From the NCBI RefSeq assembly GCF_024721585.1, contig NZ_CP102629.1:1178001-1242000 (forward strand): a stretch of 64,000 nt of DNA. The letters run 5' to 3'. Numbering within the stretch: position 1 is the first letter of the stretch; each line of letters begins with the position of its first letter. Below, piece by piece: positions 30,404 to 57,321 of the stretch. This DNA is from Sphingomicrobium aestuariivivum. GTDB lineage: Bacteria > Pseudomonadota > Alphaproteobacteria > Sphingomonadales > Sphingomonadaceae. The position numbers were made by a program, and so were the translations under genes. The notes below the pieces were generated by a model. The model was not told the origin of the DNA, did not search any database, and worked only from the letters and a program-made list of their open reading frames with translations.

Positions 30404-33400
30404 CTAGCGGGCGAGCAGGATGCGCGCTTGGCTGGCGATCTGTGCGAGCATCGGGGTGGTCGATCCCCCCGCCTTCTGCGCGCGGTCGACGAGGCGGCGG
30501 AACTGGTCGATTCGCGGCGCATTGCGGCCGATCCACTGCTCCACCGCTTCCTCGACGCCGGCGCCGCCCCGCAACACCTTTGACAGGAAGTCGATGCGCA
30601 ATTGCTCGAAGTCGCGGGCGAGGCCGGCGACCAGCAGGCGTTCCCAATTGTCCTCGGGCACGAAGCGGATCAGCTGCTGCTGGGCCCAGTCGAGGCCGAG
30701 TGCCTCGCCGAGGCGCGTGTAGGCCGAGGTGAGGGTCAGCACGTCGGTGTCGCGGCGCTTGGCCAGTGCGGCGAGGCCGAAGACGCCATCGAGCTCGTAG
30801 AGATGGATGAGGGCATCCACCAGTTCGGGCTCGGCACCGAGGCCGGTGAGGCGTTCGCGGCGCGACTGCGCCTCGTTGCGGACTTCGGCGCGGATCAGGC
30901 GGCCGGCATTGCCCTCGACGGCTTCGAAGCCGGGACCGAACAGGTCGAGCAGCGCCGAGGCACGCGTTTCCGCGCCCGCCGAGCGCAGGATGTCGCTGAG
31001 GTGACTGCGCACCGAGCGCGCGGCGACCGCGAACAGTTCGATGCGGGTCTTCTCGTCGACCTCCGCCGTCTCGATGCGGCCCCACAGGTCCTTGAGACCG
31101 AGCAGCCGCTCGGCGACGATGAAGGCGATGGCGACCTGCCCCAAGGCGACGCCTTCCTCCTCGGTCATGTCGAGCGCGATCGACGGGCCGAGGCGGTTGA
31201 CGAGGCGGTTGGCGACCTTGGTGGCGATGATCTCGTTCTCGAGGCGGTGCGCGGCGACCGCGCCCTTATGCTCGGCGACGAGTTCGCGCGGGAAGGCGGC
31301 GAACAGCTCGCCCTCGAGCGCGGGGTCATTGGCAAGATCGAGCTTCTCGGCCGCTTCCTGCAGCGCCATCTTGGACATGGACAGGACGACCGCCAGTTCG
31401 GGACGGGTCATGCCGACATTGTCGAGCCCGCGGCGCATCAGCGCTTCCGAGCTCGCCAGCCCCTCGACGCGGCGGTCGAGACGGCCGGCGGCCTCGAGGA
31501 TCTCGATGGTGCGCACGAAGCCCGGCAGGCCCGGGGCACCGCGGGCCTCTGCGACCGACAGGGCGAGTGCCTGCAGGCGATTGTCCTCGAGCACCAGCGC
31601 ACCGACCTCGTCGGTCATGCGCGCGAGGAGAGCGTTGCGCTCCTCGAGTTCGAGGCGGCCCTCGTTCATCTCGCGGTTGAGCGGGATCTTGATGTTGACC
31701 TCGTTATCCGAGCAATCGACGCCGGCCGAATTGTCGATGAAGTCGGTGTTGATGCGGCCGCCCTCGAGCGCGAACTCGATGCGCGCCTGCTGGGTGATGC
31801 CGAGGTTGGCGCCCTCGCCGATCGCCTTGACGCGAAGCTCGCTCGCGTTGACGCGGATGGCATCGTTGGTGGGATCGCCGACGTCGCTGTTGCCCTGCGT
31901 CGAGGCCTTCACATAGGTGCCGATGCCGCCGAACCAGAGGAGGTCGGCGGGCGCCTTGAGGATGGTGGAGAGGATCGCCTGCGGGGCCATTTCCTCCTCG
32001 GCATCCTCGGGCACGCCGATGGCAGCGCGCGCCTCGGGGGTGAGGCGGATCGACTTTTGCCCGCGCGAGACGATCATCGCCCCCTTGGACAGCTTGGACT
32101 TGTCATAGTCCTGCCAGCTCGACCGGCCCATCTCGAACAGGCGCTTGCGCTCCTCCCAGCTCGTCGCGGGGTCGGGATCGGGATCGATGAAGATGTCGCG
32201 ATGGTCGAAGGCGGCGATGACGCGCAGTGCCTTGGACAAGAGCATGCCGTTGCCGAACACGTCGCCCGACATGTCGCCCACGCCGACCACGTCGATGGGG
32301 TCGGTCTGGACGTCCACGCCCATCTCGAGGAAGTGGCGCTGGACCGAGACCCACGCGCCCTTGGCGGTGATGCCCATCGCCTTGTGGTCGTAGCCGTTGG
32401 AGCCGCCGGAAGCGAAGGCATCGCCGAGCCAGAAGCCGCGCTCCAATGCGATGGCGTTGGCGACGTCGGAGAAGGTCGCGGTGCCCTTGTCGGCGGCGAC
32501 GACGAAATAGGGGTCGTCACCGTCGTGGATCACGACATTGTCGGGATGCACCACGCGATCGTCGACGATATTGTCGGTGACCGACAGGAGCGAGCGGATG
32601 AAGGTGCGATAGGCCTCGGTGCCTTCGGCGAACCAGGCCTCGCGGTCACCCGGGGGCGGCAGCTGCTTGGCATAGAAACCGCCCTTGGCGCCGGTCGGCA
32701 CGATGACGGCATTCTTGACGAGCTGCGCCTTGACGAGCCCCAGCACCTCGGTGCGGAAGTCGTCGCGGCGGTCGGACCAGCGCAGGCCACCACGCGCGAC
32801 GGGCCCGCCGCGAAGGTGGATGCCCTCGACGCGGGGGCCGTAGACCCAGATCTCGCGATAGGGGACGGGAGCCGGAAGACCGGGGATCTTGCCACTGTCG
32901 AACTTGAAGGCGAGGCATTCGCCGTCCTTCAGCGCGAAGGCGTTGGTCCTGAGCGTCGCCATCACGATGGCGCGGAACAGGCGCAAGATGCGGTCGTCGT
33001 CGATGCCCTGCACCATCGAGAGCGCATCGTCGAAATTGCGGAGCGCATTCTTGACGCTGGCGGCGCGGTCATCGCCTGCATGGGGATCGTGCGCCGCGAT
33101 GAAGGCCTCGATCAGCGAGGCGGTCGCGTGCGGCGCTTCCTGCAGCGTTTCCACCACGGTAGCGAGACCGAAGGCGACGCCGATCTGGCGCATGTACCGG
33201 AACCAGGAACGCAGCCAGACGACCGAGCGCGGCTCGAGGCCGGCGAACAGGACGAGGCTGTTGAAGCCGTCGTTCTCCGCCTCGCCCGACATCACCTCGG
33301 CGATCGCCTTCTCGATCACCTCGGCGCGTTCCATGATCGCGTCCATGTCGGTGCCCTCGGGCAGCTCGAGATGGAAATCGTGGACATAGCCGAGCGCACC

Positions 33401-37333: not shown

Positions 37334-37506
37334 TCGGCCCACCCCGGCTAATGATATCTTCTGCGGGAGCATGGCGGAGCGGGCTGAAAAAAGCGTTAAG
37401 CGCGCTGAAACCAGTCTTTGCGCGCGATGGACCCACCCAAGGCTTGAAAGGGGCGGGGCACCTTGGTAGAGGCGCGCATCCGCGAGCCCTTCGGGCCGAT
37501 GGAAAC

Positions 37507-42590: not shown

Positions 42591-42860
42591 GTGTCGGTCT
42601 CCTCGTTCGCGCGGGGAGACGGAGCGAACGACGCCCGTGACGGACAAGTCCGCGCGCCGTTCAATCATCCCCCCGCCCCGGCGGAAGGATGCGTGGGGCA
42701 ACCGACCGCCGGGATGCTTGTCGCCGCCCCCTGACTGGAGCCGGCTTCACCCTGCCTGTTGCAAATCGCCACGCACTTTCTTGTCATTTTGCCACGAACG
42801 ACCGTAAGCCTGCTGCGAACAACAACAGGATATGCGCGCGAAGCGGCGCGCGGTGGCGTA

Positions 42861-43958
42861 ATGACGATGTTGATGAAGCGTTTTTCCTATCCGGCCATCC
42901 TCGAGGCAGGCCAGCGTTCGGTATGGCGTCCCGCCACCGCCGCCGTGCTGCTCATCTGGCTGTTCCACTTCCTCACCGTGAACGGCATCGGCCTGTTCTA
43001 CTTCGGTGATGGCTGGCAATATCTCGACCAGCGGGTGTTCGTGATGGCCTTCGGTATCCTCACGAGCCTCGGGCTCGTGTGGGTGATGCAGGCGACATGG
43101 CGCTGGTCGGTCATGGCCAAGATCGCGCTGGTGACGGCCTGCGCCTGTCTTGCCGCCGCGCCCTATGCCACCGTCAACTGGTACCTCATGTATTACATCG
43201 AGGGCGACGTCGATAACTGGGACATTCCCTGGTGGATCGGCTGGTCGAAGGGCGCCAACCTGTTCATGGCGCAGATGGTCGCCACCGTGGCGGTGCAATA
43301 TGCCGTGCGCCTGCTCGCGCGCGAGGAGCGGCTCCACTCGATCGAGCGCGCGGCGCGCTCGAGCGAGCTGAAAGCGCTCCGCTACCAGGTCAATCCGCAC
43401 TTCCTCTTCAACTCCTTGAACGCGGTCGCCGCGCTGGTCGAGGACCAGCGGCACGAGGAAGCCGAGAACATGCTGATCGACCTTGCCCATTATTATCGCG
43501 CCGCGCTGACGGTCGACCCGCTCGCCGACGTGCCGCTGGGCGAGGAAGTCGAGGCGCAGCTCGTCTATGCCTCGATCGAGCAGCAGCGCTTTCCCGACCG
43601 CTTCGTGATGGAAACCGACATCCCACCCGAGGCCGCGCGCCTGCCCGTGCCCTCGCTCATCCTCCAGCCGCTGATCGAGAATGCGATCAAGCATGGGGTG
43701 GCGCGCTCGCGCTCCAAGGTGCGCGTCAGGATTACCGCGGTACGGACCGCCGACGGCGCGCTGCTCGTCAGCGTGCGCGACCGTCATGCGGGCGCGCTCG
43801 AACCCGACACGCGCAAGGCCAAGGGCACCGGTACCGGGCTCGGCAACGTGCGCGCGCGGCTCGTCGCCCGATACGGCAATGCCAGCGGGCTCGAGACCGA
43901 ACAGCATGACAATGGCTTCGAGGTGCGCCTTCGCGTGCCCGTCATGGAGATGGCATGA
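42861..43958 (+). CDS. Sensor histidine kinase, LytS/YehU type
   Basis: 365 residues. Four predicted transmembrane helices in the first ~170 residues (ATAAVLLIWLFHFLTVNGIG, VFVMAFGILTSLGLVWVMQ), then the His_kinase phosphoacceptor region ELKALRYQVNPHFLFNSLNA with the N-P-H-F-L-F-N motif, and an ATPase domain with LILQPLIENAIKHG and GTGLGNVRARL. It phosphorylates the LytTR regulator encoded next. The frame is open upstream from 42759, but I start at ATG 42861. Divergent from the autotransporter across 270 bp. Stop overlaps the regulator start by 4 bases. Confidence 0.88.
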   Translation: MTMLMKRFSYPAILEAGQRSVWRPATAAVLLIWLFHFLTVNGIGLFYFGDGWQYLDQRVFVMAFGILTSLGLVWVMQATWRWSVMAKIALVTACACLAAAPYATVNWYLMYYIEGDVDNWDIPWWIGWSKGANLFMAQMVATVAVQYAVRLLAREERLHSIERAARSSELKALRYQVNPHFLFNSLNAVAALVEDQRHEEAENMLIDLAHYYRAALTVDPLADVPLGEEVEAQLVYASIEQQRFPDRFVMETDIPPEAARLPVPSLILQPLIENAIKHGVARSRSKVRVRITAVRTADGALLVSVRDRHAGALEPDTRKAKGTGTGLGNVRARLVARYGNASGLETEQHDNGFEVRLRVPVMEMA

Positions 43959-44737
43959 GGACGCTGATCGTCGATGACGAACCGCTGGCGCGCCGCCGCC
44001 TGTCGCAGCTGCTCGCCGCCCTCCCCGACGTCGACCTCGTCGGCAGCGCGAGCGATGGCAGCGAAGCGCTACGCCTCAGCCGCGAGCACCGGCCCCAGCT
44101 CATGCTGCTCGATGTCGAGATGCCCGGCACCGACGGCTTCGACGTCGTAGAGGCGCTGGCGGCCGAGCCCGCAGGCCACGCCCCGCTGATCATCTTCACC
44201 ACCGCCTTTTCCAAATTCGCGGTGCAGGCCTTCGATTGCGGCGCGGTGGATTTCCTCACCAAGCCCTTGCGTCGCCAGCGGCTGGACCTCGCGCTCGAAC
44301 GCGCGCGGCGCAGCCTCGTGGCGCGCGAGGCCGACGGCCGCCTCGCCGCGCTCCATGCGCAGGTCGACGAATTGCGCCGCGACCGTGACAGCGCGGGCTC
44401 GAAGGCCGATCCGCTGTGGATCCCGCAGGGCGGCCAGCTCGTCCGCGTCATGCCCGAGGAGATCGACCGCATCGATGCCGAGGGCGAATATGTCCGCCTC
44501 CACGTCGACGGGCAGAATGTCCTCCACCGCATGTCGCTGACCCAGATGCTCGAAGAGATCGGCGATGACGGCATGCTGCGCGTCCACCGCAGCCACGCGG
44601 TCCACCACCGCGTCATCCGCGCGCTCACTCGCAACAGCTGGGGCGGGCCGGTGTTGCTGCTCGAGGACGACCGGCAGGTGCCGGTGGGCCGCAAGTTCGT
44701 GCCGCAGGTGAAGGCCGCGCTCGGCCTCGAGGGCTAG
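43955..44737 (+). CDS. LytTR family response regulator
   Basis: 260 residues. Receiver domain with acidic pocket Asp7/Asp8, phospho-acceptor Asp53 (MLLDVEMPG) and Lys in DFLTKPL, then a LytTR DNA-binding domain: EIDRIDAEGEYVRLHVDGQ, LEEIGDDGMLRVHRSHAVH. LytTR proteins bind direct repeats upstream of targets. Partner of the LytS-type kinase (ATGA overlap). The adjacent autotransporter is an obvious candidate target, but no binding site was demonstrated. Confidence 0.9.
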   Translation: MRTLIVDDEPLARRRLSQLLAALPDVDLVGSASDGSEALRLSREHRPQLMLLDVEMPGTDGFDVVEALAAEPAGHAPLIIFTTAFSKFAVQAFDCGAVDFLTKPLRRQRLDLALERARRSLVAREADGRLAALHAQVDELRRDRDSAGSKADPLWIPQGGQLVRVMPEEIDRIDAEGEYVRLHVDGQNVLHRMSLTQMLEEIGDDGMLRVHRSHAVHHRVIRALTRNSWGGPVLLLEDDRQVPVGRKFVPQVKAALGLEG

Positions 44738-44865: not shown

Positions 44866-47800
44866 TTAGAAGTCGAAGCGCGCGAGGAAGGTGAAGCGAC
44901 GGTCGTTGCGGAACGCCGAACGGGTGATCCGCGTGCCATCATAGTCGATCAGCTGGCTGGTCTGGGTGACCTCGTCGAGGAGGTTCACGCCCTGCACACC
45001 CACCTTCACATTATCCGTGACGGCGTAGAAGATCGACGCGTCGAGCTGCCCGGTGTCCTCGCCGTAGATCGGCGAGAAGGGGAAGATCACGTCGCGCGGG
45101 GTCTGCAGGAATTCCGAGCGCCAGTTGTAGGCGGCACGGGCCGACAGGCCGGCATATTCGTAGAACAGCACCGCGTTGACCGTGTGCTCCGAGACCCCCG
45201 CGAGCGGGAGACCCTGGGCGAACGGGCTCTGCTGGGCGCCGCCGGCATCGTTGAAGAACTCGCCGCCGTCCACATAGGTGTAGGTCAGCTGCGAGCCGAG
45301 GCCGCCGAGCGCGCCGGGCAGGAAGTCGTAGACCTGCTGGTAGGCGACTTCGACACCCTTGAGCGTGCCGCTCTCGAGGTTCTGCGGGCCATCGACGCGA
45401 ACGTCATAGCTCTGCCCGGTGACCGAGTTGGTCAGCTGGTTGACCACCGCACCCGAGGTGATGACGTCGTCGATGTCCTTCATGAAGCCGGTCACGGTGA
45501 TCGAGCCGACCGTGTCCCAATACCATTCGAACGAGAGGTCGTAATTCCACGCCTGCACCGGGTTGATGAACGGGTTGCCGGTGAAGATCGCGAACAGCGG
45601 ACCGCTGTCGAGCGTACCCGAGGCATTGAGGATGCCGATGTTGTCGCCGACCACGCCGCCGACGCCGTTGGCGGCAAGGTCGGGACGGCTGATCGCCTTC
45701 GACACCGCACCGCGCACCAGCATGCCGTTACCGAAGTCGAGGCGGGCGTTGAAGCTCGGCAGCCAGTTGTCGTAGCTGCGGCCCGTGCCGAGATCGGTGC
45801 TCGCACCGTTCAGTGCCGCGACATAGTCGGGCACGCGCTCGGGCGCCTCTTCGAGGAGGGTACAGAAGCTGCGGTTGAGGTCGGGGTTGCCCGCGATGAA
45901 GGCGCAGACCGCCTCGACGTCCGACACTTCGGCGATGCCGTTGCCGTTACCGCCCAGTTCCGGATTGTCGATGACGCCCGGCTCGGGGAAGCTCAGGATA
46001 CCGTCGCTGCGCACCGTGGTGCGGGCGTAACGGACACCGAAGTTGCCGTCGAGCACCCAGCCGTTACCGAACTCATGTTCGTAATCGGCACGACCATAGA
46101 GGCCGAGCGTGTCTTCGCCGACGCTGTTGATGCTGCCCGGCTGGAAGATCGGGTTGCCATCTTCATCGACCGGCAGGAGGTCGCGCGCTTCGGGCGATCG
46201 GGTGAAGTCCTGGATCGCCTGGAACTGCGCCTCGAGGGTGCCGCCGAGGTAGCTGTCGAGCAGGCCGTCGTCGCCATAGTAGTAACCCTGGCCGACCGGC
46301 TGCGCGACATTGCCGCGCTGGAAGCCGTCACCGAACGGGTTGTACAGGCTCGCCTGGTTCGGGAAGTCGACGACATAAGCGCCGCCGCCCGCACCGTAGA
46401 AGCGGTCGGGCTGGTTCTGGCCCCAGCTCCAGTCGCCGTTACGCGTGGTCCAGGTGTCACCGAGGTTCGACCAGACCTGGTAGGTCGCCGCACGGGTCTT
46501 CTGGTTGCGCTCGGCCCAGCGGGCGCCGAAGCGAACGCGCTGGAGCGGACCCATCTCGAGATCATATTCGACATCGCCCTTGAGCGAGTTGAGGTTGCCT
46601 TCGTTGCGCAGGCGACCGTCGAGGTGGAACCAGTAATAGATGCCTTCCGGATCGGCATTGGCGGTAAGGCCGGTGCCGTCCGCGCCCTGGCCGGCGGCGA
46701 GGAACTGGACGTTCGGGGTTTCGCCCGAATTGTCGAAGTAGATGTCGCTGAAGGTGCGCATCGCGGTGATCACACCGTCGAGGCTGCGATCCGAGTTGAT
46801 CGTCTGGAATTCGACGTTGGCACGCAGTCGATCGGTGAAGACCATGTCGACATCGACCGAGAAGTCCTCGGTCATCGCCTCGTCCTGCTGCACGAAGCGC
46901 AGGTTTTCGGTCGGGATGCCCTGGATGCCTTCCTGGCTGGTCTGGGTCAGCGTCGCTGCGACGAGCTGGTTGCCGATGATGACCGGGTTGGTGCCGGGCG
47001 CGATGATCGGGCTGAAGGCGTCGTCGTTGACCTGCGCCAGCACCGCGAATTCCTCGAGGCTGCCTTCGGTTTCGGCACGGAGATATTCGGTGGTGATGAG
47101 CAGTTCGCCGCCGGCGCTTTCGAACTGGGCGACGCCCGAGAAAGCGTTACGGTCGCGGGTCAGGTCGGTGGTGCGCACGCCCGCGCCCTTCGGCGCGATG
47201 ATCAGGCCCGAGGTGTCGAAGCCGTCGGGACCGACCGGGTCGACGTCGCCGTTGATGCCGCCCGAACCGGTCGGCAGCGAACGGAAACAGGGCTGGTCGG
47301 CGAGCAGCGTGGCTTCGCGGAAGCACGGGTCGGTGATCTGGCTGGCGTCGGTGCGCGTGACCAGTTCCTGCTGGGCGTAGGCCGCCTGCAGGCCGATGGT
47401 GCCGGCCTCGAAGTCCCAGGTGTTCGACACGAGGGCCGAGAAACCGGGCGACCATTCTTCGGCGAGGTCGCCGACATTGGCTTCGACCGTGCCCGCGACC
47501 TTGAGGCCCGGGTTGTCGAGCGGCTTGCGGGTGACGAGGTTGACCGTCCCCGAGATGCCGCCCTCGACCATGTCGGCGGTCAGGTTCTTGTAGACCTCGA
47601 CGCGGCCGAGCAGTTCGGGCGAGACGTCGTTGAAGCCGAGCGTACGGCCGCCGTTGGCCGAGAAGATGTCACGGCCGTTGAGTTCCGAACGGACGTAGGG
47701 AAGGCCGCGGATGATTACGCCCGAGCCTTCGACCGAGAAGCGGTCGGGATCGTCGCGCTGGACGAAGCGGCTGATGTTGACGCCCGGGACGCGCTGCAGC

Positions 47801-48111
47801 GATTCGGCGACCGAACGGTCGGGAAGCGCGCCAATGTCCTCGGCGGTGATGACGTCGACGAAGGTGTCGGCGTCGCGCTTGATGTCCTGCGCGGTGTTGA
47901 GGCTGCGGAGGAAGCCGGTGATGACGATGCTGTCATCTTCCTCGGTGATCGGGGCGTCGGTGCCCTCGAGCTCCTCGGCTTCGTCTTCGGCCTGGGCCGG
48001 ATCGCTCGCATCCTGTGCATAAGCGGGCTGCGACATCGCCATGACCATGGCAAGGCCCGAGGCCGTGCCGAACATGCGCAAGTTAAACAGATTCTTCTCT
48101 TCGGTAGCCAA
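44866..48111 (-). CDS. TonB-dependent receptor (Caulobacter-type)
   Basis: 1081 residues, outer-membrane receptor for energised uptake. Signal peptide GTASGLAMVMAMSQPAYAQ, an acidic linker, a TonB-box-like DSIVITG, the plug (DVITAEDIGALPDRSVAESL, VIIRGLPYVRSELNGRD, LTADMVEGGISGTVNLVTR) and a 22-strand barrel ending FTFLARFDF with terminal Phe. The plug layout is that of the large Caulobacter/Sphingomonas family, often for glycans. Start is TTG 48111, supported by GGGGAGG 5 nt upstream. Two operator-like sites for a LacI repressor lie 70-110 bp upstream. It probably imports the glucan fragments handled by this locus. Confidence 0.9.
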   Translation of the reverse strand: MATEEKNLFNLRMFGTASGLAMVMAMSQPAYAQDASDPAQAEDEAEELEGTDAPITEEDDSIVITGFLRSLNTAQDIKRDADTFVDVITAEDIGALPDRSVAESLQRVPGVNISRFVQRDDPDRFSVEGSGVIIRGLPYVRSELNGRDIFSANGGRTLGFNDVSPELLGRVEVYKNLTADMVEGGISGTVNLVTRKPLDNPGLKVAGTVEANVGDLAEEWSPGFSALVSNTWDFEAGTIGLQAAYAQQELVTRTDASQITDPCFREATLLADQPCFRSLPTGSGGINGDVDPVGPDGFDTSGLIIAPKGAGVRTTDLTRDRNAFSGVAQFESAGGELLITTEYLRAETEGSLEEFAVLAQVNDDAFSPIIAPGTNPVIIGNQLVAATLTQTSQEGIQGIPTENLRFVQQDEAMTEDFSVDVDMVFTDRLRANVEFQTINSDRSLDGVITAMRTFSDIYFDNSGETPNVQFLAAGQGADGTGLTANADPEGIYYWFHLDGRLRNEGNLNSLKGDVEYDLEMGPLQRVRFGARWAERNQKTRAATYQVWSNLGDTWTTRNGDWSWGQNQPDRFYGAGGGAYVVDFPNQASLYNPFGDGFQRGNVAQPVGQGYYYGDDGLLDSYLGGTLEAQFQAIQDFTRSPEARDLLPVDEDGNPIFQPGSINSVGEDTLGLYGRADYEHEFGNGWVLDGNFGVRYARTTVRSDGILSFPEPGVIDNPELGGNGNGIAEVSDVEAVCAFIAGNPDLNRSFCTLLEEAPERVPDYVAALNGASTDLGTGRSYDNWLPSFNARLDFGNGMLVRGAVSKAISRPDLAANGVGGVVGDNIGILNASGTLDSGPLFAIFTGNPFINPVQAWNYDLSFEWYWDTVGSITVTGFMKDIDDVITSGAVVNQLTNSVTGQSYDVRVDGPQNLESGTLKGVEVAYQQVYDFLPGALGGLGSQLTYTYVDGGEFFNDAGGAQQSPFAQGLPLAGVSEHTVNAVLFYEYAGLSARAAYNWRSEFLQTPRDVIFPFSPIYGEDTGQLDASIFYAVTDNVKVGVQGVNLLDEVTQTSQLIDYDGTRITRSAFRNDRRFTFLARFDF

Positions 48112-48182
48112 AAGATCCTCCCCGATATTATTGGCAAGCGCTGGAATCGCGCAGATTTTGACGGTTCAGGTGTAAAGAAGCG

Positions 48183-48196
48183 TGTGATCGCTCACA
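48183..48196. promoter_or_regulatory. LacI-type operator TGTGATCGCTCACA
   Basis: Arms TGTGA and TCACA around a CG centre, matching TGTGANCGNTCACA also found at 52420 and 55805. It lies in the divergent region between the TonB receptor (-) and halogenase-like (+) genes, so one site could control both. The LacI regulator is encoded at 53479. Confidence 0.7.
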
Positions 48197-48203
48197 AGAA
48201 AAG

Positions 48204-48217
48204 AATGGTCGTTCACA
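48204..48217. promoter_or_regulatory. Imperfect second operator (half site TCGTTCACA)
   Basis: The right half (TCGTTCACA) agrees with the locus consensus while the left half is degenerate. It is offset from the full site by 21 bp, about two helical turns, as expected for cooperative binding. Confidence 0.45.
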
Positions 48218-48311
48218 ATATGTCGCATTTCCGTTAATTTGCCGACATTTAGCGGGCTTCGGGGGCTTCGACTGTTGCGCCCGGGTTACAGGTGGAGAGG
48301 ACAGCAGCGGC

Positions 48312-49814
48312 ATGGGTTTGAAGAAGATCGTGATCGTCGGCGGGGGCACCGCGGGCTGGATGGCGGCGGCGGCGCTGTCGCGTCTGGTGCAGTCGCGAAC
48401 CGTGGAGATCACCCTCGTCGAGAGCGAACTGATCGGCACCGTCGGCGTCGGCGAGGCGACCATCCCGCCCTTCCAGAACTTCAACGACCGTCTCGGCATC
48501 CCCGAGACCGAATGGATGTCCGCCGTCCAGGGCAGCTTCAAGCTCGGCATCCACTTCGTGAACTGGGAAACGCAGGGCGACAGCTATTTCCACCCCTTCG
48601 GCAACTATGGCTATGCCGTCGACAGCGTCTCCTTCCACGAGATCTGGATGCGCTACCGCATGGCCGGCGATGCGCGCCCGCTGCACCATTTCAGCCCCGA
48701 GACCATGGCGGCGATGCACCGCAAGTTCATGCACCAGGAGGAAGGGCAGGAACTGCCGGCGATCAACTATGCCTACCATCTCGACGCGACCGCTTATGCG
48801 CGCTTCCTGCGGCGCTATGCCGAGGGTCGCGGCGTGGTCCGCAAGGAGGGCAAGGTCGTAAAGTCCGACCTTCATGGCGAGAGCGGCTTCGTGAAGTCGA
48901 TCACCATGGACGACGGCACCGAGATCGCGGGCGATTTCTTCATCGACTGCTCGGGCTTCCGCGGCCTCCTCATCGAGGGCGCGCTCGAGACGGGTTACGA
49001 GGACTGGACCCACTGGCTCCCGTGCGACCGCGCGGTGGCGATCCCGAGCGAGGGCGACGGTACCGTCCTTCCCTATACCCGCGCGACCGCGCACAGCGCG
49101 GGCTGGCAGTGGCGCGTGCCGCTGCAGCGCCGCAACGGCAACGGCCATGTCTATTGTTCGCAGTTCATGGAGGCCGACGAGGCCACCGACATCCTGTTGA
49201 AGAACATCGACGGCAAGCCGCTCGCCGACCCCAATCACCTGCGCTTCACCACGGGACGCCGGAAAAAATTCTGGAACAAGAACGTCGTCGCCGTCGGCCT
49301 GTCGGGCGGCTTCATGGAGCCCTTGGAATCGACCTCGATCCACCTCATCCAGAGCGCCATCGCGAAGGTCGCTGGCATGCTCAGCACCGACGGCATCACG
49401 CCGGCGCAGGAAGACACGTTCAACCGCCTGATGGGCAAGGAATTCAGCCGCATCCGCGACTTCCTCATCCTCCACTACAAGGCGACCAAGCGCGACGATT
49501 CGGACTTCTGGAATTACTGCCGGACGATGGACATCCCCGATTCGCTGCAGGAGAAGATCGACCTGTTCAAATTGAACGGGCAGGTCTTCCGCGAGGAGGA
49601 CGAGCTGTTCGCCGAGACGAGCTGGGTGGCGGTGATGATGGGCCAGGGCATCCTGCCCGGCCGCCCCAGCGCGATGGCGCAGAGCCTCGACCTCGACAAG
49701 CTGCGCGGCGAATATGAGGGCATGGACCAGTCGATCAAATATCTGGTCGGCAAGATGCCCGGCCACGACCAGTATCTGCAGCGCTTCTGCCCCGCCGCCA
49801 TGGCCGCCGAATAA
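48312..49814 (+). CDS. Tryptophan halogenase family flavoprotein
   Basis: 500 residues, FAD-dependent halogenase family. Dinucleotide motif VIVGGGTAGWMAAAAL, the W-x-W-x-I/V-P motif as WQWRVP (which blocks monooxygenase side reaction), the catalytic Lys77 in SFKLGIHF, and the Glu in FMEPLESTSIHLIQ, matching the halogenase active-site Glu region. All key residues seem intact. It needs a separate flavin reductase, not encoded here. Homologues beside TonB receptors are common in Caulobacterales/Sphingomonadales and their natural substrate is mostly unknown. Shares its upstream region, with LacI-type operators, with the receptor. Confidence 0.85.
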   Translation: MGLKKIVIVGGGTAGWMAAAALSRLVQSRTVEITLVESELIGTVGVGEATIPPFQNFNDRLGIPETEWMSAVQGSFKLGIHFVNWETQGDSYFHPFGNYGYAVDSVSFHEIWMRYRMAGDARPLHHFSPETMAAMHRKFMHQEEGQELPAINYAYHLDATAYARFLRRYAEGRGVVRKEGKVVKSDLHGESGFVKSITMDDGTEIAGDFFIDCSGFRGLLIEGALETGYEDWTHWLPCDRAVAIPSEGDGTVLPYTRATAHSAGWQWRVPLQRRNGNGHVYCSQFMEADEATDILLKNIDGKPLADPNHLRFTTGRRKKFWNKNVVAVGLSGGFMEPLESTSIHLIQSAIAKVAGMLSTDGITPAQEDTFNRLMGKEFSRIRDFLILHYKATKRDDSDFWNYCRTMDIPDSLQEKIDLFKLNGQVFREEDELFAETSWVAVMMGQGILPGRPSAMAQSLDLDKLRGEYEGMDQSIKYLVGKMPGHDQYLQRFCPAAMAAE

Positions 49815-49892: not shown

Positions 49893-52271
49893 CTAGAAGG
49901 AGCAGGCCATCCCTTCGGGCATGTCGACGCGCGACACTTCGGCGATGACCATCGAGAAGGGCGCTTCGCTCGAGATGGTGATGCTGTCGCCCATCCCCGG
50001 CATGCAGGCCTCGGTAATCAGCATCTCGCGATCGGCCTTGCCGGCCGCGACCGCCATTTCCTGCGTCACATCGACGGTGGTGTCGCCGACGCTGACGCGG
50101 ACGGCGCCCGCAGGCGCGGTGTCGACCGAATAGAGGATGCGGTAGCCGCCCTCGCCCTCGGGGCCGGCCAGCGTCAGGCTGCTGCCCGGGCCGAAGGTGA
50201 CGAGGCGGGCATCTTCCTGACGGTTGCGGTCATAGCCGCGCACGACCACGCCGCCGCCCGAACCGACGAGGTTGGGGAAGGCCGTGCCGCCCGCGCTCGC
50301 GGTGATCGAGGAGGCGAGGCGACCGTCGGCGTACCAGGTCGAGCCGGCAGCACCCAGATAGGCGCATTCCTCGCTGAGCTCGGGCAGCGCACTGGTCTCT
50401 CCGAGGCCGCGACCGTAGCCGACCTCGAACAGCGCCCCTTGCGCGCCGTTGACGGGGGTGCCGTCACAGGCGGCGGGCCAGCTGAACGAAAGGCGGCCGG
50501 TGGCGGGCATGGCGCCGTAGAGGACGTCGGCAACGCCCGCGCCCTCGCCGCCCGGCAGCCAGCTCGCCACGAAGGCGTCGGCGGCGTTGATCTCGCGGTT
50601 CATCCACATCGGGCGGCCCGAGAGGAAGACGGCGACGGCGGGAATACCGGCCTCTTCATACTGGCGGAGCAGTCCGAGGCCTTCCTCGTCGGCGAAGACC
50701 ATGTTCTTCCGGTCGCCCGCGAATTCGGCATAGGGCTCCTCGCCGAAGACCACGACGGCGACGTCGGGCTTGGCGTCATAGCTGCCGTCTTCCGACAGGG
50801 TCGCGCTGCCGCCGCTCGCGGTGGCGGCGGCCTCGAGGCCCGCCCAGATGGAGGTGGCGCCCGGGAACATGTCGTTGCCCAGCTCCTTGCCGCCCTGCCA
50901 GGTCAGCGTCCAGCCGCCCGCGGCCTGCGCGATCGAATCCGCGGCCGTGCCGGCAACGAGGATGTTGGTGCCGGGCTTCAGGGGCAGCACGCCGTCATTC
51001 TTGATGACGACCTGGCTCTTGGCGACCGCCTCGCGGGCGATACCGCGATGCTCGGCGCTGCCGAGCTTCGAAAGGTCGCCCGCATTGGCGCGCTCGGACG
51101 GACGCCGGGCATTGTTGCCGATGATGCCGGCGCGGATCTTCATGCGGAGCACGCGGCCGGTGGCCTCGTCGAGGCGCGCCATCGGGATGGTGCCGTCGTT
51201 CACTTGAGCGACCAGCGTGTCCATCAGCCCCTTCCAGTCGTCGGGGACCATGTAGATGTCGAGACCCGCGAGGAGCGACTGCGGGCAATTGGTGACGGTG
51301 CAGCCGGCAACCTGCTGGTGCCCGTTCCAGTCGCCGACGACGAGGCCGTCGAAGCCCAGTTCGCCGCGCAGCACGTCGGTCAGCAGGGCCTTGTTGCCGT
51401 GCATCTTCTTGCCGTTGATCGAGTTGAAGCTGGCCATGATCGTCTCGACCCCGGCGTCGATCGCGGCGGGATAGGGATAGGCGTGGATCGCCTTCAGCGC
51501 CTCGATGTCGCCGTTGACGTCGCCCTGGTCGACACCCTGTTCGGTGCCGCCGTCGCCAAAGAAGTGCTTGGCGGTGGCGATGACATGGCCTTCGCCGAGA
51601 CGGTCGGCATCGCCATTCGCGCCCTGCAGGCCCTCGACCAGCGCGGCGCCCATGGCGGCGACGATGCGCGGGTCTTCGGAATAGCTTTCGTAGCTGCGGC
51701 CCCAGCGGTCATCGCGCGCGACCGCCACGGTCGGCGAGAAGTTCCAGTCGATGCCGGTCACCTCGATCTCGGTCGCGGTAGCCGCGCCGATGCGGCGCAC
51801 GAGGTCGGTGTCGCGCGTCGCGCCGAGCCCGATATTGTGCGGGAAGATGGTGGCGCCGATCACGTTGGTGTGGCCGTGCACCGCGTCGGTGCCCCACATG
51901 GTCGGGATCACGGGCTCGTCGCCCTCGAGGGGCTGGACCGAGGCCATGTACATCTCGTCGGCATAGCGCAGCCATTCGCCGGCGGGGGCATATTCATCGC
52001 CATAGGGACCGCCGTTGCCGCCGTTGAGGTAACTGCCGAAGCGGTAGCGCTCCATATCCTCGGGGGTGAAGCTGTTGATCTGCGGCTGGATCAGCTGGGC
52101 GACCTTGCGCTCGACGCTCATGCGCGAGAGGAGGTCGGCGACCAGCGCGTCCTCGGCATCTTCGACGCTCGTGGCGGCGGGCGTGGAGGTGGTCTCTACG
52201 GTGGTGGTGGCGCAGGCGCTCAAGGCGGTGGCGGCCATCAACAGGCCGAGCGTAGGGGCGATGCGACGCAT
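49893..52271 (-). CDS. GH3 glucan beta-glucosidase lipoprotein (exo-beta-1,3/1,4-glucanase type)
   Basis: 792 residues. Lipobox LSAC in TLGLLMAATALSACATT. N-terminal GH3 barrel: IPTMWGTDAVHGHTNV, WNFSPTVAVARDDRWGRSYE, the K-H-F motif ATAKHFFGDGGTEQG, and the nucleophile Asp314 in GLVVGDWNGHQQ. The alpha/beta C-terminal domain and an extra ~150-residue beta domain follow, as in exo-glucan glucohydrolases (ExoP-like). It should release glucose from beta-glucans at a membrane surface. I use ATG 52271 (AGGAG eight bases upstream) rather than the GTG at 52280. An operator-like palindrome lies about 150 bp upstream. Confidence 0.92.
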   Translation of the reverse strand: MRRIAPTLGLLMAATALSACATTTVETTSTPAATSVEDAEDALVADLLSRMSVERKVAQLIQPQINSFTPEDMERYRFGSYLNGGNGGPYGDEYAPAGEWLRYADEMYMASVQPLEGDEPVIPTMWGTDAVHGHTNVIGATIFPHNIGLGATRDTDLVRRIGAATATEIEVTGIDWNFSPTVAVARDDRWGRSYESYSEDPRIVAAMGAALVEGLQGANGDADRLGEGHVIATAKHFFGDGGTEQGVDQGDVNGDIEALKAIHAYPYPAAIDAGVETIMASFNSINGKKMHGNKALLTDVLRGELGFDGLVVGDWNGHQQVAGCTVTNCPQSLLAGLDIYMVPDDWKGLMDTLVAQVNDGTIPMARLDEATGRVLRMKIRAGIIGNNARRPSERANAGDLSKLGSAEHRGIAREAVAKSQVVIKNDGVLPLKPGTNILVAGTAADSIAQAAGGWTLTWQGGKELGNDMFPGATSIWAGLEAAATASGGSATLSEDGSYDAKPDVAVVVFGEEPYAEFAGDRKNMVFADEEGLGLLRQYEEAGIPAVAVFLSGRPMWMNREINAADAFVASWLPGGEGAGVADVLYGAMPATGRLSFSWPAACDGTPVNGAQGALFEVGYGRGLGETSALPELSEECAYLGAAGSTWYADGRLASSITASAGGTAFPNLVGSGGGVVVRGYDRNRQEDARLVTFGPGSSLTLAGPEGEGGYRILYSVDTAPAGAVRVSVGDTTVDVTQEMAVAAGKADREMLITEACMPGMGDSITISSEAPFSMVIAEVSRVDMPEGMACSF

Positions 52272-52419
52272 GGGTGTCACTCCTGTTCAACGCGGGATCG
52301 GGCTTCGACGGGCCAGCGCTTGGGCTGCCCGCCTCGTTCCCGAACCGCTAATCTCTCTCCTGACGAGGATCCGACCCGTGCGGGAAGGCGCCTCGCTCCG
52401 CGCCAAGCTGTATCAGATT

Positions 52420-52433
52420 TGTGAGCGTTCACA
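52420..52433. promoter_or_regulatory. LacI-type operator TGTGAGCGTTCACA
   Basis: With one more matching base on each side (TTGTGA...TCACAA, 52419-52434) this is an almost perfect palindrome. It lies upstream of the GH3 gene, between it and the DUF4239 gene. Same consensus as at 48183 and 55805. Confidence 0.75.
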
Positions 52434-52444
52434 AGGGCTAGGGA

Positions 52445-53305
52445 CTAGCGCATCTCGAGATAGGGCTGGATCGCCTGCTCCATGTCGCGGTCTGGATCGA
52501 AGGAGAGGAGCAGCGCCTTCAATGGCGCCTGCTGCTCGCGCAGCATCCCCACCGTCGGCCGATCGATATCGATGATGAGGAGCATCGACAGGCTGAGGAG
52601 GAGGAACAACACCACCGCCGCCAGCCGCGCCCAGAAGCCGACCAGCGAATAGCCCAGGATCAGCGCGGCGATCATGATGTAGACCAGCAGCACCGCATAG
52701 ACCGCCGAGGGCACCTTCGCGAGGCGGGCGTTCTTGCGCGCGGTATCCATGTCGATGACCTCGTTGATCGAGCCGACGAACTGGGCGGTGATCGGGCTCG
52801 CGCCCTGCCCCTCCACCATCGCGCTGGTCTGCGCCCACATCTGCCCGAGCAGCACCTCGTTGCGCACGAGCCGTTCGGGTAACTCCTCGTCGATCCCCCC
52901 CGACAGGTCGAGCCGGTTCTGCGCATAATCCTCGAGCGTCTCGCGCAACTGGCCGCGCCACGGCTCTTCGATGAGCGAGGTGCGAAGATGCGCGGTGCCG
53001 ATGGCATTGGCCTCGACCAGCACCAGCTCGCGCCGCTCCTCGAACCGGCTCAATGACAAGGAAAAGGTGAAGCCCATCAGCAGCGCGAGCAGGCCAAGCA
53101 CCGCGGAGACGACATAAGCCTCCTGCCCTCCCTCTTCCTTGCGCTCGGGCAGGAACAGTCGCGGCGACTTGCGGATGGCATAGCCGACGAGCGCGGCGAC
53201 CAGCATGCCGCCGAACAGCACGAGCGAGATGTCGATGAGCGAGGAGCGGTCGAAGATATCGACGAGGGTTTGGGGAATGAAGATGTTCCCGTCTGCCTCG
53301 TTCAT
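52445..53305 (-). CDS. DUF4239 (bestrophin-like) membrane protein
   Basis: 286 residues with four predicted transmembrane helices: two near the N-terminus (ISLVLFGGMLVAALVGYAI; VVSAVLGLLALLMGFTFSLSL) and two near the C-terminus (VYAVLLVYIMIAALILGYSL; AAVVLFLLLSLSMLLIIDID), with a helical periplasmic or cytoplasmic middle. The ALLMGFTFSLSLSRFEERRELVLVEANAIG segment is the DUF4239 hallmark. Possibly a channel-like protein; function unknown. It lies inside the glucan locus but is divergent from lacI, with no operator near its own start. Confidence 0.8.
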   Translation of the reverse strand: MNEADGNIFIPQTLVDIFDRSSLIDISLVLFGGMLVAALVGYAIRKSPRLFLPERKEEGGQEAYVVSAVLGLLALLMGFTFSLSLSRFEERRELVLVEANAIGTAHLRTSLIEEPWRGQLRETLEDYAQNRLDLSGGIDEELPERLVRNEVLLGQMWAQTSAMVEGQGASPITAQFVGSINEVIDMDTARKNARLAKVPSAVYAVLLVYIMIAALILGYSLVGFWARLAAVVLFLLLSLSMLLIIDIDRPTVGMLREQQAPLKALLLSFDPDRDMEQAIQPYLEMR

Positions 53306-53478: not shown

Positions 53479-54522
53479 ATGAAAAAGCGTTCGGTGACCA
53501 TCGAGGATGTTGCGCGCGTGGCCAACGTGTCGCGCCAAACGGTAAGCCGCGTGCTCAACCGGCTGCCCTCGGTCAGCGCCGATGCCAAGGCCCGCGTCGA
53601 GGAGGCGATCGCCGAGTTGGGCTATGTCCCCAACCTAGCGGCGCGGCGCATGGGCGGCGCGAAAAGCTTCCTCATCATGGCGATCAACGATCGCGCCCGC
53701 ACCATCGAGAACTGGGCCGCGGGGCGCGGCAACGACTGGGTCGACCAGATGCTCTACGGCGGCATGATGGCCTGCGAGGAACGCGGCTATCACATGCTGT
53801 TCGAGCTGGTGGACACCGAGCCCGCGCTGGCGGCAGGGCAGATGCAGCGCATCCTCACCAGCCTCCAGCCCGACGGCTTCATCCTGACCCAGCCGCACAG
53901 CGAGAATCCCAAACTGGCCGAGCAATTGAAGGAGCGAGGGCGCCCCTTCGTGCGCATCGGCCTGCCCAATCCCGACATCCCCGCCGTCTCGGTCCACATG
54001 GACGAGGCGGGCGCCGCGCGCGCGGCGGTCGAGCATCTGATCGATTTCGGCCATCGCGACATCGCGCTGCTCGCGGGCAACAAGCAATATGCGGGCAGCA
54101 TCGCGCGCCGCGAGGGCTATGCCGAGGCGATGGCCGAAGCGGGCCACGAGCAGCGCATCGAGGAAGGCGACTTTTCCTACGACAAGGCCGCCGAGATCGC
54201 CGCCCACTGGTTCGACGGCGATGACGGCCCGAGCGCCATCATCGCCGAGAATGACGAAATGGCCTTTGCCGTGCTGCGCGAGGCGGGTCGGCGTGGCATC
54301 AAGGTGCCCGAACAACTGTCACTGCTCTCCTTCGAGGACACGCCCGGCGTGCGCTTCTCGGTGCCGCCGCTGACCGCCATCCGACAGCCGACCGCCAAGA
54401 TGATCGGCAAGGCCTGCGACCTCCTCATGGACCGCGCCGAGGGCAAGGACGCGGAGGAAGATGTCCACGTCCTGCCGTTCGAACTGATCATCCGCGAGAC
54501 CACGGGTCCCGCGCCCAAGTGA
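53479..54522 (+). CDS. LacI family transcriptional regulator
   Basis: 347 residues. N-terminal helix-turn-helix and hinge: VTIEDVARVANVSRQTVSRV, then AELGYVPNLAARRM. The sugar-binding periplasmic-binding-protein-like core has GHRDIALLAGNKQYAGSIAR, ARREGYAEAMAEAG, SAIIAENDEMAFAVL and PEQLSLLSFEDTP. It is the natural repressor for the TGTGANCGNTCACA sites around it. No such site lies before its own gene, so autoregulation is not apparent. AGGGAGGG precedes the ATG. The MFS gene follows 22 bp downstream. Confidence 0.92.
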   Translation: MKKRSVTIEDVARVANVSRQTVSRVLNRLPSVSADAKARVEEAIAELGYVPNLAARRMGGAKSFLIMAINDRARTIENWAAGRGNDWVDQMLYGGMMACEERGYHMLFELVDTEPALAAGQMQRILTSLQPDGFILTQPHSENPKLAEQLKERGRPFVRIGLPNPDIPAVSVHMDEAGAARAAVEHLIDFGHRDIALLAGNKQYAGSIARREGYAEAMAEAGHEQRIEEGDFSYDKAAEIAAHWFDGDDGPSAIIAENDEMAFAVLREAGRRGIKVPEQLSLLSFEDTPGVRFSVPPLTAIRQPTAKMIGKACDLLMDRAEGKDAEEDVHVLPFELIIRETTGPAPK

Positions 54523-54544: not shown

Positions 54545-55753
54545 ATGACCGGTTTCGAGCGCCGCCTCGTCCTTGCCAACCTCGGCGCCTTCACCGCCTT
54601 CATGCCGCTGCTCGTGCTGCTCTTGCCGCGGCGGATCGAGGCGGTGGCGCCGACCGGGGCGCTGGCGCAGCTCTCCCTCCTCCTGCTCGTCGGCGGCCTC
54701 GTCGCCAGCGGCGCGCATGTGCTGGGCGGCTGGTGGAGCGATCGCTGGATGGCGCGCACCGGCAGCCGCCGCACCCAGATCGCGATCGGCCTCGTCGCCG
54801 TCCTCGCCAGCCTCGTCGCGTTCGGCAGCGCGATGACCCTGACCGGCCTGATGGCAGCGATGATCGGCTTCCAGTTCAGCTTCAACATCCTGTTCGCGCC
54901 ATTGAATGCGCTCCTCGCCGACTATGTCCCCGATCCGCGCAAGGGACTGGTCGCTGGGGCGGCAGGCGGCATGCTTCCGCTCGCCGGCTTCACGGTCAGC
55001 ATCGTCGGCTGGGTTTCGGCCAGCGATGCCGCCTGGCCCTTCGCGATGGTCGCCGCCGCGGTAGGGCTCGGCATCGCCCCGCTGCTCCTCGGCTGGACCC
55101 GCGATCCCGTGATCGCCACCGCACCGCTCGGCGAAGCACCGGGCTCGGCGGCATGGAAGCTACTCAAGGGCGATTTCGCTTATGCCTGGATCGCGCGGCT
55201 GCTGGTCCAGTTGGGCGCGGTCGTGGTGATCAGCTACCTCTTCCTCTACGTCGACACGGTCGCGCGCGGGGCACCGGGCTTCGGGGAACGCAATGCCTCG
55301 TCGGCGGTGGCGCTGCTGGCGCTCGTCTCCAACCTCTTCGCCATCGCCGCGGGGCTGCTCGCGGGGCGGTGGAGCGACCGGCTCGGCGCCCGCCGTCCGG
55401 TTCTCGTCGCTACCGCGCTTCTCATGGCGGCGATGCTGGCGCTGCTCGCGCTCGCCCCGCACTGGGGGGTGGTGATCGCCGCCCATGCGCTCTTCACCGC
55501 TGCACTGACCGCCTTTCTCGCGGTCGACAGCGCGATGGTCGCCAGCCTCGTTGCCGGCCGCCGCCGCCGCGGCGCGCTCCTCGGCATGATGAACCTCACC
55601 AACACCCTGCCCTCGGTGCTCGCCCCCGCCATCGCGCTCACGCTCGCCCAAGCGGCGCTGGGCGGCGCGGCGCTCGTCACGCTGCTGTGGCTGGCGGCAG
55701 GTGCCACGGTCGTCGCCGCGTTGGCAGTGTTGCGCATCCGCACCATACGCTAA
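54545..55753 (+). CDS. MFS transporter (sugar-type candidate)
   Basis: 402 residues, 12 predicted transmembrane helices in two halves. The loop after helix 2 carries GGWWSDRWMARTGSRRTQI and the second half repeats it as AGRWSDRLGARRPVL, the MFS G-x-x-S-D-R motif. Similar to GPH/major facilitator carriers described beside glycoside hydrolases in sphingomonads, so an oligosaccharide or glucoside is the likely cargo. It is co-directional with lacI and likely co-transcribed. Substrate inferred from context only. Confidence 0.82.
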   Translation: MTGFERRLVLANLGAFTAFMPLLVLLLPRRIEAVAPTGALAQLSLLLLVGGLVASGAHVLGGWWSDRWMARTGSRRTQIAIGLVAVLASLVAFGSAMTLTGLMAAMIGFQFSFNILFAPLNALLADYVPDPRKGLVAGAAGGMLPLAGFTVSIVGWVSASDAAWPFAMVAAAVGLGIAPLLLGWTRDPVIATAPLGEAPGSAAWKLLKGDFAYAWIARLLVQLGAVVVISYLFLYVDTVARGAPGFGERNASSAVALLALVSNLFAIAAGLLAGRWSDRLGARRPVLVATALLMAAMLALLALAPHWGVVIAAHALFTAALTAFLAVDSAMVASLVAGRRRRGALLGMMNLTNTLPSVLAPAIALTLAQAALGGAALVTLLWLAAGATVVAALAVLRIRTIR

Positions 55754-55804
55754 CCCCTTCCCTTCAAGCGACAATCGCGGCACAAAAGCGATAGACGCGC
55801 ACTC

Positions 55805-55818
55805 TGTGATCGTTCACA
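55805..55818. promoter_or_regulatory. LacI-type operator TGTGATCGTTCACA
   Basis: Perfect arms TGTGA/TCACA around the CG centre, about 60 bp before the sugar transporter start and 50 bp after the previous gene. Third member of the locus-wide operator set. Confidence 0.75.
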
Positions 55819-55878
55819 GTCGCGCCTCGTTTCCCGGCAGGCCCCTGCCGGGTCATTCTCTATGGGGGAGGATTTTTC

Positions 55879-57321
55879 ATGGTTTCAGTGTCGCCCGATG
55901 CGGCCACCAGCACCGATAGCCGCCCGGTTATCGACGAGGACGGCGGCGTGCATGCGCCCGGCCTCAACTATTTCGTCTTCGCGCTCTTCTTCATCTTCGG
56001 CGGGATCACGTCATTGAACGACGTCATCATCCCCAAGCTGAAAGAGCTGTTCACGCTCAGCTACACCGAAGCCATGCTGGTGCAGTTCTGCTTCTTCACC
56101 GCCTACCTGCTGATCGGCATCCCCGGCGCCAAGCTCGTCAAGAAGATCGGCTACATGCGCGGCGCGGTGGCGGGTCTCGTCACCATGATGGCGGGCTGCC
56201 TGCTGTTCATCCCCGCGAGCCAGACCGCGACCTATCCGGTCTTCCTCCTCGCGCTCTTCGTCCTCGCCTCGGGCGTGGTCGTGGTGCAGGTCGTCGCCAA
56301 CCCGCTGATCAGCATGCTCGGGCCGCAAAGGACCGCGCACAGCCGCCTCACCTTCGCGCAGGCGTTCAACTCGCTCGGCACCACCGTCTTCCCGATCGTC
56401 GGCACGATCGTCATCCTCGGCAGCCTTGCCACGGTGACCGCCGACCAGCTGTCGGGTGTCGAACTCCAGCAGTATCGCCAGGAAGAGAGCGCTGCCATCT
56501 GGAAGGGCTATCTCGGCCTCACCGTGCTGATCGGCATCGTCGCGGCCGCCGTCTGGGCCTTCCGCAAGCGCCTGCCGCATGATGCCAAGAGCATGGGCGA
56601 GAGCAAGCTGGTGTCGTGGAACCGCTATGCCATCGGCATCGCCATCGTCCTCGTCGGCGGGCTCGTCGCGATCAACCGCTTCGGCCTGTTCGAGGAAGAC
56701 CAGGTGGCGCAGGTCGTCGGCCTGCTCATCATCCTCGGTGCGCCGATCCTGTGGCTCTTCGACAACGACCTCCTGAAGCGCACCCGCTTCGGCTATGGCG
56801 CGCTCAGCATCTTCCTTTACGTCGGTGCCGAGGTCGCGATCGGGTCGATCATCGTCAACTACCTGATGCAGGAAAGCGTCCTCGGGCTGCCCGAGAGCGA
56901 AGCCGGCAAGCTCATTGCCGTCTACTGGGGCGGCGCGATGGTCGGCCGCTTCATCGGCTCGGGCCTCTTGCGCATCTTCTCGCCCGGCAAGATCCTCGCC
57001 TTCAACTGCCTTGGTGCCATCGCGCTGATCACTGTCAGCATGATGTCGACGGGCGAAGTGGCGGGCTATTCGCTGCTCGCGGTCGGCCTCATGAACTCGA
57101 TCATGTTCCCGACGATCTTCAGCCTCGCCTGCGAGAAGCTGGGGCCGCGTGCGGCCGACGGGTCGGGCATCATCAACATCGCCATCTTCGGCGGTGCGGT
57201 GGTTCCCGTCGTGTTCGGCATGGTGGCCGATGCCACCAGCCTGTCGAGCGCGCTCGTCCTGCCGATCATCTGCTACGCGATCATCATGGGCTTCGGCATC
57301 TTCGCCCGGCGCCCTGCCTGA
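55879..57321 (+). CDS. Sugar MFS transporter (FGP/GluP-like)
   Basis: 480 residues, 12 helices. The fucose-galactose-glucose permease family is recognised by FALFFIFGGITSLNDVIIPKLK, FFTAYLLIGIPGAKLVKKIGY, VVQVVANPLISMLGPQ and FAQAFNSLGTTVFPIVG. These are proton symporters for hexoses. A central insertion (about residues 195-260) is longer than in E. coli FucP. It follows a LacI-type operator and has GGGGGAGGA before ATG. It would take up glucose released by the GH3 enzyme. Confidence 0.9.
   Translation: MVSVSPDAATSTDSRPVIDEDGGVHAPGLNYFVFALFFIFGGITSLNDVIIPKLKELFTLSYTEAMLVQFCFFTAYLLIGIPGAKLVKKIGYMRGAVAGLVTMMAGCLLFIPASQTATYPVFLLALFVLASGVVVVQVVANPLISMLGPQRTAHSRLTFAQAFNSLGTTVFPIVGTIVILGSLATVTADQLSGVELQQYRQEESAAIWKGYLGLTVLIGIVAAAVWAFRKRLPHDAKSMGESKLVSWNRYAIGIAIVLVGGLVAINRFGLFEEDQVAQVVGLLIILGAPILWLFDNDLLKRTRFGYGALSIFLYVGAEVAIGSIIVNYLMQESVLGLPESEAGKLIAVYWGGAMVGRFIGSGLLRIFSPGKILAFNCLGAIALITVSMMSTGEVAGYSLLAVGLMNSIMFPTIFSLACEKLGPRAADGSGIINIAIFGGAVVPVVFGMVADATSLSSALVLPIICYAIIMGFGIFARRPA

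Follow-up and report, generated by a model that had tools for sequence, protein, structure and literature searches.

The window, i.e. the whole stretch of DNA analysed here, comprises 64,000 nucleotides of the Sphingomicrobium aestuariivivum genome (NZ_CP102629.1, positions 1,178,001 to 1,242,000). It harbors a gene for a flavin-dependent halogenase (HAL), which opens with ATG 200 bp away from a divergently oriented gene for a TonB-dependent receptor (TBDT) and is accompanied by genes for a GH3 enzyme, a LacI-family regulator and two sugar-type MFS transporters (Table 1). The initial annotation had described a glycan locus with no indole metabolism nearby, and both statements agree with the annotated neighborhood, where none of the ten genes between 42834 and 58392 is of the indole kind. 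The top NCBIfam model for GH3 is the exo-beta-1,3/1,6-glucosidase NF052331, with 247 bits far under its cut-off of 1330. The bestrophin-like protein grouped with at most one other member when 84 sources were clustered. SapC, Cupin_8 and a dedicated flavin reductase are absent from the annotated neighbors of HAL, and the sole PF01613 match of the genome lies approximately 436 kb from HAL. Elsewhere in the window we noticed a large protein that carries an autotransporter domain at its C-terminus (PF03797; 37722-42701), an adjoining His_kinase/LytTR two-component pair (42759-44737) and, at 35138-37372, two long ORFs overlapping on opposite strands (744 aa on the minus, 724 aa on the plus strand), of which the 744-aa ORF is acidic, repetitive and has no Pfam match.

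Table 1. Genes and predicted operator sites of the halogenase locus (coordinates refer to the window).
Feature	Coordinates	Strand	Evidence or remark
HAL, flavin-dependent halogenase, BrvH/Xcc4156 type, 500 aa	48312..49814	+	PF04820, nearest solved chains, catalytic residues
TonB-dependent receptor (TBDT), TonB-Xanth-Caul subfamily, divergent from HAL	44866..48111	-	TIGR01782 576 bits (cut-off 310); PF00593, PF07715
LacI-type operator GTGTGATCGCTCACAA, TBDT-HAL gap	48182..48197	.	1 mismatch to TTGTGANCGNTCACAA; 115 bp before HAL, 71 bp before TBDT
Putative additional, weaker operator GAATGGTCGTTCACAA, offset by 21 bp	48203..48218	.	4 mismatches, by eye
GH3, beta-glucosidase-like	49893..52280	-	PF00933, PF01915
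Operator TTGTGAGCGTTCACAA, 139 bp before GH3	52419..52434	.	0 mismatches
Bestrophin-like protein, between GH3 and LacI	52445..53305		PF14023
LacI-family regulator, presumed operator binder	53479..54522	+	PF00356, PF13377
MFS transporter a (MFSa)	54545..55753	+	PF07690
Operator-like CTGTGATCGTTCACAG, 60 bp upstream of MFSb	55804..55819	.	2 mismatches
MFS transporter b (MFSb), FucP/GluP type	55879..57321	+	TIGR01272 gluP 254 bits, cut-off 203

The HAL protein scores 637 bits against the Pfam family Trp_halogenase (PF04820), the match covering residues 5-458 of its 500 and profile positions 1-455 of 458. It contains GGGTAG at residues 10-15 with the GxGxxG glycines G10, G12 and G15, furthermore K77, the motif W265-Q-W-R-V-P270 and the stretch FMEPLESTSI with E336 and E339, the latter of which we take to be the catalytic Glu by PrnA numbering. 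An alignment of 78 sequences from the laminarin-type loci defined below, one of them being that of the window, shows K77 in 77 sequences and W265, W267, P270, E336 and E339 in all 78; the earlier statement that catalytic Lys, Glu and W-x-W-x-V-P are retained can therefore be confirmed. Such near-invariance argues against the reading that the enzyme no longer halogenates and acts as a flavin oxidase/monooxygenase or serves the cassette as a structural partner. That reading, which we regard as quite unlikely, draws on tandem copies in our wider survey, 9 of 92 sequences, that have lost the catalytic Lys, which makes non-catalytic roles within the family conceivable. The Lys-less copies (L118:8633, L125:9041, L129:10035, L177:4886, L183:6355, L185:6967, L190:7269, L193:6994 and L215:7740) occur one each in loci with several halogenase genes, are grouped in the leaf order of the tree and may represent non-catalytic partner subunits.

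Regarding solved structures, the closest chains by sequence are the tryptophan halogenase of Pseudoalteromonas sp. L11 (9luq, 504 bits), Xcc4156 of Xanthomonas campestris (6y1w, 483 bits) and BrvH of Brevundimonas sp. BAL3 (6frl, 460 bits), with PyrH (313 bits) and PrnA (296 bits) more distant. A structure model of HAL built from 28 sequences (mean pLDDT 82.4, residues 338-341 below 50) gave the same ranking by fold, with 9luq at 46-47% identity, Xcc4156 at 46% (TM-score 0.92) and BrvH at 42%, followed by PyrH and PrnA at 34-36%. HAL shares fold and catalytic motif with PrnA, RebH and PyrH, but these enzymes reach only 31-36% identity in the structural match and act on free tryptophan (PMC8269204). 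In the sequence alignment, the region-1 loop of HAL is shorter than that of PyrH, whose long region-1 segment was not found, and no longer than that of BrvH, and region 2 shows no insertion relative to BrvH or Xcc4156. HAL thus lacks this feature of a tryptophan halogenase proper. Besides the PF04820 family, GxGxxG and WxWx(I/V)P, HAL has in common with BrvH the catalytic Lys (K83 of BrvH aligns with K77) and a region-1 loop of similar length; the BrvH variant K83A was reported to be inactive, i.e. this Lys is essential (PMC5945002). The loops of Xcc4156 were described as short, its substrate site as open and its substrate as possibly a peptide, and both BrvH and Xcc4156 have crystal structures and brominate indoles, their native substrates being stated as unknown (PMC7336383). 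From this homology HAL is best regarded as an intact flavin-dependent halogenase, variant A, of the BrvH/Xcc4156 group, with halogenation as its predicted activity. The suggestion of an undescribed biochemical system could not be upheld for the enzyme itself, since this kind has already been described (PMC7336383). Differences concern the setting and the known activity: a second halogenase gene was reported upstream of BrvH (PMC5945002), whereas HAL is assigned to a LacI/laminarin-type regulon, and, between Xcc4156 and HAL, indole-derivative bromination has been demonstrated for the former only (PMC7336383).

Related loci were collected by a scan of named genomes, and the best 80 of 565 (62-72% identical, many on short contigs) were compared. 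Among these best 80, TBDT is present in 77, LacI in 67, GH3 in 65, MFSa in 58, GH16 in 47 and the FucP-type MFSb in 26. The gene caller found HAL in 77 of the 80 and missed it in L049, L063 and L082, where it was detected by tblastn. In 71 of these 77 loci TBDT is the immediate neighbor of HAL, divergently oriented in 68; the remaining six comprise five with a short called ORF in between and one at a contig end. Gene order beyond HAL differs between groups of relatives. The joint presence of GH16, GH3 and TBDT suggests the use of laminarin (beta-1,3-glucan), hence the gene families of the window locus together with GH16 suggest a laminarin utilization set. Gene content and the LacI-type operator resemble the known TonB-dependent carbohydrate utilization loci (TBDT, GH, MFS, LacI), from which this locus differs by its receptor-paired halogenase, and related cassettes by SapC and Cupin_8 as well. 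A strong PF04820 match is found in 44 of 79 genomes of the window's family, so the trait is widespread there without being shared by all.

A further link between these genes is provided by a LacI-type operator, TTGTGAGCGTTCACAA or a near copy, which occurs in the TBDT-HAL gap, before GH3 and before a distant GH16 gene. Scanning the window with at most three mismatches to TTGTGANCGNTCACAA yielded five sites; shuffled sequences had 1.2 on average and reached five in 1 of 100 shuffles. With the same limit, 63 of 77 HAL genes (window, L003 and relatives) have a site upstream, as against 0 of 77 shuffles, which preserve base composition only. For GH3 the upstream count is 41 of 57, and for other genes it is 7 of 588; one site of the window entered these counts twice. 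The consensus was picked after viewing the gaps, so independent tests are GH3, the GH16 gene of the same genome and the whole-genome search. The latter returned only five sites with at most one mismatch and none for the reversed control. Three of the five precede laminarin-type genes, namely the TBDT-HAL pair, GH3 and GH16, the last being situated more than 1.1 Mb from the window locus, its called start 30 bp away from where the operator begins. The two others are found at C1:2063755, between aldehyde dehydrogenase and subtilase genes, and in the window at 35175-35190; this one-mismatch site 134 bp upstream of a gene for NAD-glutamate dehydrogenase (30404-35041, minus strand) may reflect chance or a further regulon member. 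Few sites were found in relatives before LacI (1/76), MFSa (0/59), GH16 (1/46) and FucP (2/27, window counted). In most maps these four genes lie downstream of TBDT on its strand, hence they may be read from the receptor promoter. Receptor, GH3, GH16, transporter and regulator all fall within the predicted regulon, with GH16 encoded elsewhere in the genome behind the same operator. Co-regulation of HAL with the beta-glucan genes, as proposed in the initial annotation, and likewise with the receptor is accordingly a prediction that is well supported by the sequence, and the neighboring LacI protein presumably binds the operators.

Beyond the laminarin type, we surveyed 55 strong-match loci (L003, the strong-match clusters L118-L131, and L176-L215, the latter being the 40 best-scoring clusters outside G000, G010 and G125 and not a random draw). 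Their enzymes are of alpha-glucan, beta-glucan or fucoside types, and the commonest neighbor shared by halogenase loci is a TonB-dependent receptor. When weaker tandem copies are included, 81 of 93 HAL genes adjoin a receptor, 72 by a script that looks through HAL, SapC and Cupin_8 and nine by inspection (receptors identified by Pfam in L178, L180, L192 and L199, and a short ORF in between in L190, with four genes, and L205). A receptor is encoded within the fetched stretch in 52 of the 55 loci; the exceptions are L200, a contig of 6 kb, as well as L207 and L215. Recurrent cassette members are SapC (PF07277) and Cupin_8 (PF13621). Among another 35 loci, where matches are weaker and other subfamilies are included, 17 of 40 HAL genes adjoin a receptor (16 by script plus L139 by Pfam). 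No adjacent receptor was called for the weaker PF04820 proteins of other genomes at L132-L138, L140-L146, L220, L222, L224, L225, L227 and L231. Four plasmids, selected from 56 matching records, carry similar arrangements: TBDT, a 2OG-Fe(II) oxygenase, HAL, GH32 and amylosucrase in Catenovulum; TBDT, HAL and GH95 in Asticcacaulis; TBDT and HAL, with GH68 approximately 6 kb off, in Sphingomonas; and a HAL cassette with GH16/GH3/GH43 in Sphingobium. On the Catenovulum plasmid a protein with TPR and 2OG-Fe(II) oxygenase domains (PF13759; L296:7439-8959) is inserted between receptor and halogenase, i.e. a kind of oxygenase besides Cupin_8.

The survey bears directly on the substrate that had been proposed first, an aromatic group of beta-glucosides from plants or algae that the locus would take up. 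Such a function would fit the predicted co-regulation of HAL with GH3 and the receptor, and the open active site of the homologues could take a larger substrate (PMC7336383). The L215 halogenases are situated beside GH67 and an arabinofuranosidase, and those of L207 (L207:8860-11208) beside GH94. The substrate of GH67 and arabinofuranosidase is a plant polymer able to carry aromatic esters. No receptor occurs in the stretch read of these two glycan loci (GH94 and MFS in L207; GH67, arabinofuranosidase and GH3 in L215), which favors a link to glycan use in general, slightly raises the aromatic-glycoside reading and lowers one in which the receptor is the target. Nevertheless, homologues reside with GH13, GH13 and GH97 in the second copy of the same genome and elsewhere with GH29, with GH95, with GH32 and amylosucrase, and with GH68 about 6 kb off, i.e. 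in alpha-glucan, fucoside and sucrose or fructan loci, and to our knowledge laminarin and maltodextrin contain no aromatic groups. As a general rule an aromatic-aglycone substrate is therefore not supported, and for the present enzyme we consider it improbable.

The relation between halogenase and receptor appears to be closer than that to any glycan. The genome encodes two halogenases, the second in an alpha-glucan locus with the order MFS, LacI, TBDT, HAL, GH13, GH13, GH97, and 16 plug-domain proteins. Only two of the latter exceed the TIGR01782 cut-off, and these are the neighbors of the two halogenases. Across 44 diverse pairs, HAL and TBDT distances are correlated (r 0.33; 0 of 2000 permutations as high), and r rises to 0.51 once nine laminarin-type pairs are added; common descent of whole loci contributes to this correlation. 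For 34 of 53 pairs the closest HAL belongs to one of the three nearest receptors, compared to an expectation of 3. The laminarin-type HAL proteins form one clade of 79 leaves, whose sole survey member comes from a GH16/GH3/LacI locus. A further case is Sphingobium sp. RAC03 from an algal phycosphere. Its LacI (70% identical), GH3 (65%), GH16 (57-59%) and MFS proteins (55-61%) resemble those of the laminarin loci, and operators with two mismatches precede both the receptor and GH3 genes. The RAC03 halogenase, however, is only 51% identical to the laminarin-type halogenases, and its receptor has no close match in these loci (28-35% to a laminarin-type receptor over pieces of approximately 350 residues); the best full-length match, at 24%, is to the alpha-glucan receptor of L003. 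In RAC03 the receptor and halogenase genes are separated by SapC and Cupin_8, and L214 is the nearest locus for both its receptor (67%) and its halogenase (73%). A regulon for what is apparently the same glycan thus contains another receptor along with another halogenase, as if the two had been exchanged as a pair. That HAL follows the receptor more than the glycan enzymes over evolution is thus supported by the sequence comparisons.

Two assumptions on the target deserve most attention. Our tentative preference is that HAL works as a partner of the receptor and modifies some component of the receptor system, perhaps the receptor polypeptide itself. Linkage and operator are observed in the DNA and halogenation is predicted from homologues, and this choice of target is our guess. 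A LacI regulator of the beta-1,3-glucan (laminarin) regulon would repress HAL together with TBDT. As known from characterised homologues, a housekeeping flavin reductase would supply FADH2, which reacts with O2 and halide; bromide would probably be the preferred halide, as with BrvH and the Xcc enzymes. K77 and E339 would steer the hypohalous acid onto an aromatic ring in an active site that is probably open and devoid of the long lid loops seen in tryptophan halogenases. The ring may belong to an aromatic residue in one of the polypeptides that make up the receptor system, most likely in the co-produced receptor, and the modification may occur in the cytoplasm ahead of export, both of which we guess. 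One point against the receptor as target is that HAL has no signal peptide and looks cytosolic (judged by eye), whereas the mature receptor resides in the outer membrane.

The other assumption, nearly as likely as a polypeptide of the receptor system, is that HAL halogenates a small, free aromatic compound such as an indole-like signal or a defence substance, is induced by algal glucan and is linked to the receptor through shared induction only. It is consistent with the bromination of free indole, not tryptophan, by BrvH (PMC5945002) and with the action of the Xcc enzymes on indole derivatives (PMC7336383), co-induction is predicted as well, and the linkage could come from shared regulation alone. 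However, the indole activity of BrvH is so low that its authors doubt indole to be the natural substrate (PMC5945002), and the lineages of halogenase and receptor travel together across several glycans. Moreover, apart from glycan genes no family occurs in more than 15 of the 84 clustered sources; the histidine-specific methyltransferase family PF10017 is found in 15 of the 84, in Erythrobacter-like loci as far as the map shows.

For a target in the receptor, 123 HAL-linked receptors (79 laminarin-type, 44 diverse) were aligned with 30 from HAL-free genomes, which resulted in more than 3000 columns for proteins of approximately 1000 residues, i.e. an alignment that is poor in the variable parts. 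No column with Trp, Tyr, His or Cys was both universal in the 123 linked receptors and absent from the 30 unlinked ones. Two tryptophans are enriched without being universal, W547 with 94, 50 and 0% and W997 with 92, 66 and 23% in laminarin-type, diverse and unlinked receptors, respectively. Glycan binding could be the source of this enrichment, and a modified receptor tryptophan is not supported by this pattern. Receptors of the same subfamily were found in 11 of 15 HAL-free genomes, hence such receptors exist without a halogenase. A gene for a RiPP-like substrate peptide was also considered, and none is generally evident among the annotated genes beside HAL: the TBDT-HAL gap measures 148 bp in the median (66 divergent pairs) and frequently carries the operator, and the order beyond HAL is variable. 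A wider formulation, which we find rather doubtful, is that receptor-paired halogenases, along with the Cupin_8 oxygenases and SapC of sister cassettes, attach halogen or hydroxyl groups post-translationally to the TonB-dependent receptor or to a surface partner and thereby tune its recognition, its stability or its resistance against phages and toxins.

Linkage of such halogenases to receptors was not found described in the open-licence PMC literature, as judged by title and start of abstract, and the term TonB has no occurrence in the Xcc4156 paper (PMC7336383). Such neighbors do occur in genome annotations. To the extent of the open-licence literature, the enzyme kind is therefore known and the receptor pairing, the regulon and the paired swap are new. 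The pairing with a receptor whatever the sugar represents a new place to look for the natural target of these halogenases. A family that mostly occurs with TonB-dependent receptors under a predicted shared repressor indicates which growth condition would induce the enzyme and which protein or compartment should be inspected, and the induction condition would still be useful for finding the product if neither the receptor nor its partner is the target. If one of them is, this would represent a new kind of bacterial surface-protein modification, and in the wider formulation a system for modifying proteins that is tied to carbohydrate receptors across several proteobacterial groups.
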